64,000 bases of DNA from Candidatus Poribacteria bacterium (GTDB lineage: Bacteria; Poribacteria; WGA-4E; PCPOR2b). The notes below the pieces were generated by a model. The model was not told the DNA's origin, did not search any database, and saw only the letters and a list, made by a program, of their open reading frames with translations. Below, in pieces: positions 48,824 through 52,531 of the stretch (positions within the stretch are counted from its first letter, which is position 1; each line of letters opens with the position of its first letter). The position numbers and the translations under genes were made by a program. The DNA lies in the NCBI GenBank assembly GCA_003635265.1, contig PYIZ01000034.1:1-64000 (forward strand), in the 5' to 3' direction.

Positions 48824-49861
48824 TCACACCAGCGATATCGAAGCGAGGTAAACATTGGAACCGTGATTATCCCCCGGCGCGTATTCGTGGGATGAGTAGT
48901 ACGCGATAAGCACCTGGTTGTCACTGATGGGAAGAATCCCGCCGTAGCCGGTGTCTCCGCCACTAGGAAGGACTGTATGCAGACGAATATCGCCGTCCTC
49001 GTATAAGAACACCCCAGTTCTGAGTTGGCTCTGGTCGTGGTCGCTGAACTTATCGTTGAAGCGATTCTCTGTGGCGCGGACACCTTCATTGGCGAAACTT
49101 CTACCGGTGACGATAACATGCTCGCCGACTCTGGCGATGGCTGAACCGTAGCAACGGGATTCGCGGGAAAGGGTGCGTTCCCACTGATCATAAGGTGGTT
49201 CTGAGGTGGAGAGCAGAGCACAGTGTCCCCGTGCTCGTGTGACCGCTAACAGGCGGCCATCGTCAAAGAAACAGAGGGATGTTTCGCTGGGCGCCGGTGT
49301 GCCAAAGTAGATACCTGTTGTATCGTAATACGCTGGTTCCTCCGACCCGTGGACGATCTCCGTGACCCATTCCCATCGTTCGCCGTCAACCGAAGTAAGG
49401 AGATCAACTGAATTGTGGTTTCCGAGCGGTGCATGTCCAACTGTATCACATGCCACGTAATAGCGCCCCTCAAACTCAGTTGGATGCCAAAAGTCGTGAT
49501 CTCTGAGAAAGCATCTCTTCGGTCCCGCCCAAGTCGTTCCGTCCGTCGTCCACGTTACCACCTGCTGAGATGGAAAACCGAAGTCGGAATCTCCTATGCC
49601 TTCCTTCACCCCATACAACAGTAGTTTGTCACCGACAGGGAGCAAGTTCGGGTCTATTGTCTTTCTTCCAATGGCAATCTGGGAGGTCCAATTCTCTAGG
49701 TCAGTGGAAGCACATATCCTGATTTGAGAGTCCTCGGTTCCGTGACCTGTTCCATCAACGAAACAGATATAGTATACCCCTTTCCATTGCACCATGTTTC
49801 CAACGTGCCAGCCTCTACCGTTACTATAAACCGTTTTCACCCAATTCACGTCTATTTTCAT
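48824..49861 (-). CDS. Sialidase / GH43-like beta-propeller protein
   Basis: 345 residues, soluble with no signal peptide. Repeated blade motifs such as ASTDLENWTSQIAIG, WTTDGTTWAG and LTSVDGERWEWV (Asp-box-like S-x-D-x-x-x-W) indicate a five- or six-bladed propeller of the sialidase/GH43/GH32 type. Catalytic acids are not certain from inspection (candidates Asp35 and Glu43 near VDGTGHGTEDSQ). Likely binds or cleaves a glycan, in line with the neighbouring aldolase and Gfo/Idh genes. RBS is weak. Confidence 0.7.
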   Translation of the reverse strand: MKIDVNWVKTVYSNGRGWHVGNMVQWKGVYYICFVDGTGHGTEDSQIRICASTDLENWTSQIAIGRKTIDPNLLPVGDKLLLYGVKEGIGDSDFGFPSQQVVTWTTDGTTWAGPKRCFLRDHDFWHPTEFEGRYYVACDTVGHAPLGNHNSVDLLTSVDGERWEWVTEIVHGSEEPAYYDTTGIYFGTPAPSETSLCFFDDGRLLAVTRARGHCALLSTSEPPYDQWERTLSRESRCYGSAIARVGEHVIVTGRSFANEGVRATENRFNDKFSDHDQSQLRTGVFLYEDGDIRLHTVLPSGGDTGYGGILPISDNQVLIAYYSSHEYAPGDNHGSNVYLASISLV

Positions 49862-50173
49862 GATTAGTTTCTCTCTGTAATTCGGGTGTGTTGATATTTC
49901 GTTGTGTGACTTCCGGAAATCCTGTAATCAGGGGACTATTTTGCCCAAAAGCCGGCGATTATTCTAAATCGCCTCAAGCTGCTTTGGATCCCAATCTTAT
50001 CGGAAGCACATTTGGATTGGCTTCATACGTCGAATGTCAGCAGAGCCTAGTAACTCAAGTTACACATTGCCACTTATTGACAACTTGAGGGTTGGATTCT
50101 ATTTGACAAAAGCCCTTTCGTCGCATACAATAAATAGGCACTTGATTATAATTCAAAAGGAGGTGTAACCCAA
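49862..50173. other. Intergenic region with two hairpins and a promoter
   Basis: 312 bases. A 7-bp hairpin (GGCGATT/AATCGCC, 49954-49973) and a longer-loop 8-bp inverted repeat (CTCAAGTT at 50054-50061, AACTTGAG at 50082-50089) precede the promoter at 50103-50131. The inverted repeat just upstream of the -35 could be an operator. No gene is supported here. Confidence 0.55.
50103..50131 (+). promoter_or_regulatory. Consensus sigma70 promoter of the HMA selenoprotein gene
   Basis: TTGACA (50103-50108) and TACAAT (50126-50131) at exactly 17 bp, about 43 bp before the ATG. One of the best promoter matches in the window, suggesting strong expression. Confidence 0.75.
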
Positions 50174-50557
50174 ATGCGAATATTAAAACTGACACTAATT
50201 TGCTGCGTCGCAATTCTACTTGCTATCGGCTGTGCTTCAGAGAAACAGATGGAAAAGGCGGCTGAAACAGCAGCCCCCGCAGCGACAGAAACTGAAACTG
50301 CTGCAAGTACCGATATGTCTGAAGCAGCACCGGCGGCTCACGAACAGATTACGTTAAACGTTGATGGGATGACGTGAGGTGGGTGTGTAGCCCAAGTGCG
50401 GTCCGCACTTACAAAGGTTCCCGGCGTGATTAGTGCCGATGTTTCGCAAGCAGATGGTACAGCCATCGTTAAGCTCGAAAAAGGCAAAGCCACTGGTGTC
50501 CAATTGGCCGATGCTGTTACAAAAGCAGGTTTCGACGCGAAAGAAGCAACAAATTAG
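50174..50557 (+). CDS. Predicted selenoprotein: HMA metal-binding lipoprotein with in-frame TGA (Sec68)
   Basis: 127 residues if TGA at 50375-50377 is read through. Residues 1-20 form a lipoprotein signal (LLAIGC lipobox, lipidated Cys20), 21-58 an Ala/Thr/Glu-rich linker, and about 59-127 a heavy-metal-associated (MerP/CopZ-type) domain. The motif, normally GMTCxxC, reads GMT-TGA-GGC, so selenocysteine would replace the first metal-binding Cys. After the TGA the frame stays open for 59 codons with clear HMA features (VRSALTKVPGV, ATGVQLADAVTKAGFDA) and ends at TAG. A SECIS-like hairpin starts 16 nt after the TGA. RBS AAAGGAGGTG. The protein would sit in the periplasm, tethered to a membrane, binding Hg, Cu or another soft metal. 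The alternative is a nonsense mutation in a Cys codon. Confidence 0.8.
50394..50410 (+). promoter_or_regulatory. Bacterial SECIS-like hairpin
   Basis: AAGTGCGGTCCGCACTT folds into a perfect 7-bp stem whose apical part is GGTCC, placing GGU (50400-50402) at the tip, as in E. coli fdhF. The GGU lies 22 nt after the TGA, within the 16-37 nt range usual for bacterial SECIS. It would recruit SelB with Sec-tRNA. Confidence 0.7.
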
Positions 50558-50580
50558 TCAATTCCTACGGTCATAACCTG

Positions 50581-50620
50581 AACGGAAGGTGTCGAATTAA
50601 TGAACTGATACCTTCCGTTT
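50581..50620 (+). terminator. Rho-independent terminator-like hairpin after the selenoprotein gene
   Basis: AACGGAAGGT (50581-50590) pairs with ACCTTCCGTT (50610-50619), 10 bp, with a 19-nt loop and a short T run. Placed between two convergent genes. The T-tract is brief, so efficiency is uncertain. Confidence 0.55.
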
Positions 50621-50686: not shown

Positions 50687-52531
50687 TCACTGCATTCCTC
50701 CCATTTGCTGCAGGCTGATAATCATAACGATGATTTCCCTAAAATCCCCAAGCGAGATAAATAGTTCTCCTGCAACTCCCTGATCTCGATTTTGGCTGGC
50801 AATACCGATGCTGTAGGTTTCAGGAATGTTCACCAAAAACATCTGGACCATGCCGATGTTCGGATCCATTTGCGCGAAAATCTGTACTAGATTCTTGACC
50901 GCAGTGATAGGTGAAAGCGCAAAGAACATATTGTTTTTCAAAGTCAATGCGCCGGTCAGTTTGGCGTAGCCTGCCCCTTGATCAAACCCCGCCCCCATAC
51001 CTGCCATTCGGTCTATGGTGTTTTTGACTGGTTGGGCGTTACCCGCCATTGCGTAGAGCATTTTTCCACCATTGATAGCATAGTAGATATTCCACTGCTC
51101 TGGTGCAACACCTTCCATTCCAGGCGGAAGTTCAGCGAAAAGGGCGTCGATATTTGGCATAATGTAACTTTTAATCTCCACGCCGTTATATATCTCAGAA
51201 GGACCTGCAGACACATCACTGTACATGCCAGCGATTTCCTGCGTGCCGCCCATCGCTTGCATCAGGCCCATGGTCGCTCCCAAATATTCGGTGAAATCAT
51301 TCTCCATGTAGGCTTTAACCCGAGCTTCGTCGGTCACATCATAGATGTAGAAAAAGTCAGGCATCAGGCTACTTCCAAAATTAAGGGAAAAAGCGAACTC
51401 ATCTCCCAAGCCTGCGTAGAAACCTTTCGCGGCTTCAGTCAGTGCCGCGGTTGCTTCCTCAATCTTCGCCGTATCCGCGTTCGAACCCGAAGGGATAATT
51501 AACTGCATCATTGCCTGCGTAAGCTCAATGAGCATCTCCTTCTGAAATTGCATTTCGCCGTTGAGAAACGCATTTTGAGGCAGGTGTTTGAGGTGTGTCA
51601 ACTCCCCGGGCATTTGACTAATATATGTTTGAATTTCGCTATCCCCTTTAAATTTGAGGAATGGGGAAATCTGGAGGTCGGTACCGTTGAGCTGCACGGT
51701 AAGACTCAAGGTTTTTGATTGATCCAGCAACCATAGACCGCCGTCAATTACACTCTCAGCCTGCCCTAAGCCGCTACTGAGTTCTGGATCCGTTTCGGCA
51801 CTTGCCTTCATGTCTGTCTTTAACTCTTCCGCTTTTTCGGTCAGCGTGGGACGGAGGGCATCCGCAATCGCATCCATTGCAAAATAAGCAACCACATCAT
51901 TTGTGCCAGACGTGGTATCCAGTTTGAGCGATTGGAAGTCGGTGGTGTCCGCAATTGAGGGCATTGCTTTTTTCTGAGTATCAATGACCTTCTCGCAGAC
52001 CGCCGCTGAACCTGAATAGACCATCACATCGTCCATCAGAACAAATGCCCCCTCTTCACCCGTAGTATAATACGTTACACCGTTATGGGTGAAAGAGCTA
52101 CTGCCTTCCGCTTCCATTTCGATTAGCTGTTTAACGCTGTCCGCATCTTTAACGTGAACCGCAGCAGAATACATCAACGGATTCACACCGGAGAGAAACA
52201 CGGCGAAGTTTCTCTGCAGATCCAAACCGAGTTCCTCCAATTCTTCCAGCGTCTCAAAACCTGCGCCAAAGGTCTCAGCTAATATCTGAGCGGGCACTTC
52301 TTGCGGTGGATCTGTAGGAATCAGTTCTGCCATAAGTGCGTTAATTTCGTCATTGAGTCCTAGTAAGCTGGGTATGTAAATCACCCCAACGGTGTCTTGG
52401 GGGATGATATTCAAAACACTGTCAGGCGCAACATCGGGAGCCGCCATTATTTCTTTCCCGCTGTAACTGAACACCATCATACTAGTCAGCAAGATTAGAG
52501 TTAGGGTAATTAAACGACAGGACACTTTCAT
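50687..52531 (-). CDS. Exported protein of unknown function (DUF3352-like)
   Basis: 614 residues with a Sec signal peptide (MKVSCRLITLTLILLTSMMV; cleavage near residue 30, before APDVAPDSV). The mature part begins VLNIIPQDTVGVIYIPSL and has AAVHVKDADSVKQLI and GVTYYTTGEEGAFVLMDD motifs that resemble DUF3352-type proteins (predicted exported solute or stress proteins of unknown role). Long helical insertions follow. No catalytic motif seen. RBS AAGGAG. Convergent with the selenoprotein gene; no operon. Confidence 0.7.
   Translation of the reverse strand: MKVSCRLITLTLILLTSMMVFSYSGKEIMAAPDVAPDSVLNIIPQDTVGVIYIPSLLGLNDEINALMAELIPTDPPQEVPAQILAETFGAGFETLEELEELGLDLQRNFAVFLSGVNPLMYSAAVHVKDADSVKQLIEMEAEGSSSFTHNGVTYYTTGEEGAFVLMDDVMVYSGSAAVCEKVIDTQKKAMPSIADTTDFQSLKLDTTSGTNDVVAYFAMDAIADALRPTLTEKAEELKTDMKASAETDPELSSGLGQAESVIDGGLWLLDQSKTLSLTVQLNGTDLQISPFLKFKGDSEIQTYISQMPGELTHLKHLPQNAFLNGEMQFQKEMLIELTQAMMQLIIPSGSNADTAKIEEATAALTEAAKGFYAGLGDEFAFSLNFGSSLMPDFFYIYDVTDEARVKAYMENDFTEYLGATMGLMQAMGGTQEIAGMYSDVSAGPSEIYNGVEIKSYIMPNIDALFAELPPGMEGVAPEQWNIYYAINGGKMLYAMAGNAQPVKNTIDRMAGMGAGFDQGAGYAKLTGALTLKNNMFFALSPITAVKNLVQIFAQMDPNIGMVQMFLVNIPETYSIGIASQNRDQGVAGELFISLGDFREIIVMIISLQQMGGMQ

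Follow-up and report, generated by a model that had tools for sequence, protein, structure and literature searches.

The question raised by this locus is whether a TGA codon at 50375-50377 of the window (the whole stretch of Candidatus Poribacteria DNA that was analysed, 64,000 nucleotides) ends a lipoprotein gene prematurely or is read as selenocysteine (Sec) within a longer one. The codon is an ordinary stop in this DNA, as an earlier note on the sequence had held, because 19 of the 43 ATG-initiated open reading frames of at least 200 aa in the window end in TGA, those at 2371, 16838 and 20121 included. That note had also drawn attention to a lipoprotein frame broken by this TGA at the first Cys of the GMTCxxC motif of HMA domains and followed by 59 further codons of HMA character. 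A 59-codon open frame would by itself be little evidence of anything; the case for Sec is built from the domain, the codon, the RNA that follows it and the decoding machinery of the genome.

The interrupted frame and its product

The frame opens with an ATG at 50174, meets the TGA at 50375-50377 and closes 59 codons later with a TAG at 50555-50557. Read through, it is a forward-strand gene (50174-50557), delineated by sequence, Pfam and homologues, for a predicted lipoprotein of 127 residues in which the TGA specifies Sec68 (U68). A Shine-Dalgarno sequence, AAAGGAGG, is present at 50156-50163 (+) with the ATG 10 nt further on. Upstream of this a sigma-70-like match (TTGACA-17-TACAAT, 11/12) at 50103-50131 (+) is only suggestive as a promoter of the gene, one such match having been found where 1.2 were expected from shuffled sequence. 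The first 60 nucleotides of the gene (50174-50233) encode a signal peptide and a lipobox, LAIG-Cys20, whose Cys is invariant in 35 aligned homologues; a lipobox Cys following a signal peptide is what is expected of a lipoprotein. The HMA domain (PF00403) occupies 50351-50536, residues 60-121 of the read-through protein, with an E-value of 9.4e-13 and a score of 48.8 bits against a gathering cut-off of 24.8. Its predicted structure has the beta-alpha-beta-beta-alpha-beta order of a ferredoxin-like fold, so that score and fold agree in placing it among HMA domains. Alignment shows that the TGA substitutes for the first Cys of GMTCGGC, giving GMT-U-G-G-C, and that the second ligand, Cys71 (50384-50386), is invariant in the 35 homologues. 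Both parts of the earlier description of the frame were thus borne out, the first by the lipobox and the alignment and the second by the Pfam match. Downstream of the gene is a strong inverted repeat (50580-50620; 15 pairs, -21 kcal/mol by fold computation), perhaps a terminator common to this gene and the convergent gene at 50687-52531 (-). A scan for consensus terminators did not pick up this repeat and a scan of the whole window against Rfam returned no match.

Evidence that the TGA is recoded

The genome from which the window derives is a draft assembly, 88% complete and in 53 contigs. In profile searches SelA (599 bits, cut-off 268) was found adjoining SelB (373 bits, cut-off 242), and a tRNA-Sec with anticodon TCA (UCA) lies directly 3' of these genes to form a single selA-selB-tRNA-Sec cluster. 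SelD (locus L190) carries an in-frame TGA of its own at the usual UxxK site (TCG-U-AAK) with a hairpin after it, and is predicted from this sequence to be itself a selenoprotein. The check on Sec machinery proposed in the earlier note therefore came out positive, with the complete set (SelA, SelB, SelD and tRNA-Sec) that a bacterial selenoprotein calls for, and the presence of SelA, SelB and tRNA-Sec together with a TGA-bearing SelD independently supports UGA recoding in this genome.

A search of 85 genomes of the phylum Poribacteria gave matches to the HMA gene in 78. Among 152 related HMA sites from the phylum the codon at the first ligand is TGA in 144, TGT in five and TGC in three, so that, as in other bacterial selenoproteins, an in-frame TGA aligns with Cys of homologues; this was the comparison that the earlier note had called for. 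The nearest named relatives, Candidatus Poribacteria assemblies at 61-84% identity, all have TGA at this codon, and TGA is still found there in homologues down to about 40-50% identity. It is present in all six genomes of the window's genus, and dN is lower than dS on either side. Values downstream of the TGA are roughly 0.02-0.14 for dN and 0.05-0.5 for dS, and those upstream are much alike; both parts of the gene are under purifying selection. The residues invariant in the 35 aligned homologues are M1, C20 of the lipobox, U68, C71, V75, L79, G84, V85, L111 and A122, and the best conserved portion of the protein is the domain that follows the TGA. Chance can be excluded, because homology flanks the TGA on both sides and the codon is kept at nearly all sites. 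At one further locus (L137:1306, +) a CAG to TAG change inside the hairpin described below places a TAG nine codons past the TGA, and this copy is a pseudogene or carries an assembly error.

The bacterial SECIS element (bSECIS) that the earlier note had proposed to look for is represented by a hairpin, AGTGCG-GTC-CGCACT, at 50395-50409 (+), which starts 20 nt downstream. When the T of TGA is numbered 1, positions 21-26 pair with 30-35 and the loop comprises 27-29, with an apical G at 27. The published bSECIS model (PMC13188914) calls for a 3-9 nt loop that has G at its first or second position, a distance of 16-37 nt from the UGA and an MFE of -7.5 or lower; the window hairpin agrees with it in distance, loop length, loop G and MFE. 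The core pairs 22-25/31-34 are standard in all 141 ungapped TGA sites and G27 is invariant. With 124 distinct sequences taken together, pairing holds in 98.3% of cells; sliding the partners against each other brings it to no more than 54%. Both sides have changed in two stem pairs, one from A-U to G-C (in the window's genus and others) and one from G-C to A-U, the latter compensatory change entailing Ala to Val in the protein. Covariation in the hairpin exceeds that in all 500 shuffles, a control that is inflated by the relatedness of the sequences. Where the stem encodes Ala the codon is always GCA, whereas in more distal parts of these genes GCA accounts for 21% of Ala codons. From +3 to +48, but not beyond, the MFE is lower (mean z -1.3) than that of synonymous shuffles. 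In Cys paralogues with nearly the same peptide, pairs 23/33, 25/31 and 26/30 drop to 50%, 62% and 38% respectively: the stem decays in these copies despite an almost identical peptide.

On these grounds the UGA at 50375 is almost certainly decoded as Sec, and the reading of the whole as a lipid-anchored HMA selenoprotein is very probable. That TGA is a normal stop in the window does speak for a pseudogene, a sequencing error or read-through by some other tRNA, but the recurrence of this codon across tens of separate genomes, the conserved SECIS, purifying selection past the TGA and the Sec machinery of the genome leave this group of explanations with hardly any probability. A base error is excluded because many separate genomes agree on the codon, and an interrupted pseudogene, the other alternative raised in the earlier note, does not hold for a TGA kept to such low identity with selection acting after it. 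A different possibility is that the UGA acts as a selenium-dependent switch, translation mostly ending with a 67-residue lipopeptide and going on into the HMA domain only when selenium is plentiful. Termination competes with Sec insertion at UGA, a matter of textbook knowledge that lends the idea some sense, and purifying selection also acts on the stretch upstream of the TGA; the switch is nonetheless improbable, given that conservation is highest in the domain downstream of that codon and that other members of the family have Cys versions without any stop.

Relatives and known systems

The sites in the phylum fall into several classes. Short lipoproteins, often in tandem pairs, make up one (class a). 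Another (class b) is an exported protein of about 530 aa that combines PSCyt1, WD40 repeats and a C-terminal HMA domain; it has Sec in most genera read (L173-L187 and L189), and Cys forms occur at three loci (L170-L172) from the window's own family. Tandem HMA arrays form class c: an exported protein at L144:2156-3373 (+) has five HMA domains with TGA at the first ligand in four and TGT in the last, and so is predicted from its sequence to contain four Sec, while L165:1067-2062 (+), in a 5.0-Mb contig, has four domains with TGA in three and TGT in the last. Finally, in class d (L132, L138) the HMA-Sec domain precedes a long extension. UxxxC replaces UxxC in three Poribacteria genomes of one family (L140, L146 and L150), and the hairpin is moved by one codon too.

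Outside the phylum, 6 of 392 genomes sampled around a relative from a Planctomycetota assembly have TGA at the ligand in short HMA proteins (L243-L248), most with a signal or lipobox, which suggests that proteins of this kind are not restricted to Poribacteria. L246 has two in tandem; its hairpin core is that of the window (AAGTGCGGTCCGCACT), with a different best fold for the longer stretch. The second TGA gene of L246 (-) likewise has a longer spacing, UGAAC. The 369 genomes around a relative from a MAG titled Deltaproteobacteria gave mostly Cys proteins and, among the matches listed, the sole one with a TGA in frame has TGC at the ligand.

Sec in HMA and metal-transport proteins is already known from the NF041115 family, a UxxC P-type ATPase, MerP in ocean metagenomes and NF045683. 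NF041115, a UxxU metal-binding (seleno)protein listed as a putative mercuric reductase, shares with the window protein an HMA-like domain and Sec in the ligand motif, but it has two Sec (UxxU) rather than UxxC and its 74-position model lacks the lipoprotein linker; with 57.3 bits against a cut-off of 95 the window protein falls outside the family. MerP is a soluble periplasmic protein belonging to mer operons, whereas the window protein is a lipobox lipoprotein, which scores 51.6 bits against the MerP model TIGR02052 (cut-off 92.55) and so is not a member. Both are exported HMA proteins, and a Sec variant of MerP is on record in two marine GOS sequences, which agrees with the mention in the earlier note of Sec in mercury-transport-related proteins from marine metagenomes. 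The fold and GMTCxxC motif are also held in common with CopZ (NF047957) and other Atx1-like copper chaperones. CopZ and its kin are cytosolic and Cys-based, whereas the window protein is predicted to be an envelope lipoprotein with Sec; its 62 bits to NF047957, its best NCBIfam score, are below the cut-off of 85 and exclude it from that family. NF045683 (MerT/CopZ fusion-like) and the UxxC E1-E2 P-type ATPase selenoproteins also place Sec in metal transport, the ATPase likewise as UxxC, but they are membrane transport proteins unlike the window lipoprotein (38.7 bits to NF045683, cut-off 375). A deep-Sep paper does not mention HMA, heavy metal or Poribacteria. What appears to be new is a family of UxxC HMA lipoproteins that lies below every NCBIfam cut-off and was not found in the accessible portion of the table of the 2026 selenoprotein catalogue (PMC13188914), together with relatives predicted from sequence to include the cytochrome/WD40/HMA-Sec protein and tandem HMA arrays with three or four Sec.

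The role of the Sec residue

The structure predicted by AlphaFold2 is an HMA fold with pLDDT above 90 over the domain and a disordered linker before it. Foldseek matched the predicted fold to MerP, CopZ and copper-ATPase domains (the best matches mostly at TMt 0.88-0.93), and sequence matches in the PDB are mostly to copper proteins. Only two other HMA domains were found in the window's genome, both in one 884-aa frame that is presumably a copper ATPase. The neighbouring genes, read from partly annotated loci, are kept between relatives but generic, with no metal system or resistance gene recognised among them; the genes flanking the selenoprotein gene in the window, at 50687-52531 (-) and 48824-49861 (-), have no Pfam match. 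A counterpart of the former adjoins the selenoprotein gene in relatives L192-L195 too. A mercury-operon setting was also looked for: in the window's genome no mer operon was recognised, MerA gave only matches below the cut-off and MerT gave none, this last absence being unproven as the control genomes were also blank for MerT. The emphasis placed on mercury by the earlier note thus lacks specific support. We hold with moderate confidence, from the modelled fold, that the protein would be an envelope soft-metal binder with Cu(I) favoured over Hg(II).

The sequence of events envisaged is that the ribosome would read the UGA at 50375 as Sec by way of SelB, tRNA-Sec(UCA) and the in-frame bSECIS, and that the protein would be exported, lipidated at Cys20 and retained in the envelope, as the invariant lipobox suggests. 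Sec68 and Cys71 of the HMA domain could then hold a soft metal ion, more likely Cu(I) than Hg(II), in two-coordinate fashion through selenolate and thiolate, and the protein might act at the membrane as scavenger or chaperone. Metal binding in the envelope, for which fold and motif argue, is somewhat the likelier outcome. The main rival to it is a redox role, in which the UxxC pair would be the centre of a selenenylsulfide reductase or oxidase built on an HMA scaffold rather than a metal ligand. The envelope is oxidising and a Sec-Cys pair could do redox chemistry there; one relative couples HMA-Sec with the PSCyt1 haem domain, and a few relatives have UxxxC, a spacing that would be unusual for a metal site with two ligands. 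Many UxxC selenoproteins are moreover homologous to thiol oxidoreductases, according to the 2026 catalogue (PMC13188914). The predicted fold is however that of an HMA domain and not of thioredoxin, and GMT and the remaining HMA signature are retained, so that a redox centre is a possible but rather unlikely reading.

Returning to the metal-binding reading, it is an even call whether the lipoproteins, the PSCyt1-WD40-HMA protein and the exported tandem arrays of Poribacteria, with three or four Sec and a last domain with Cys, together form one class of envelope HMA selenoproteins whose metal ligand is a selenolate instead of a thiolate. If so, Sec would be a metal-binding residue here and not a catalytic redox residue. 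To our knowledge redox catalysis explains most known Sec residues. The four Sec of an array of the L144 type would also exceed the upper range in the 2026 catalogue, which gives two to three Sec for a small subset of families and one for the others (PMC13188914). Such a family is easily overlooked in standard annotation because gene callers halt at TGA. With Sec at a metal ligand throughout a phylum that also has natural Cys paralogues, the family allows a test of whether Sec is selected for soft-metal affinity. Comparison of these Sec and Cys paralogues, the latter with a decaying SECIS, also offers a clean natural experiment on the constraint that such an element imposes inside coding sequence.
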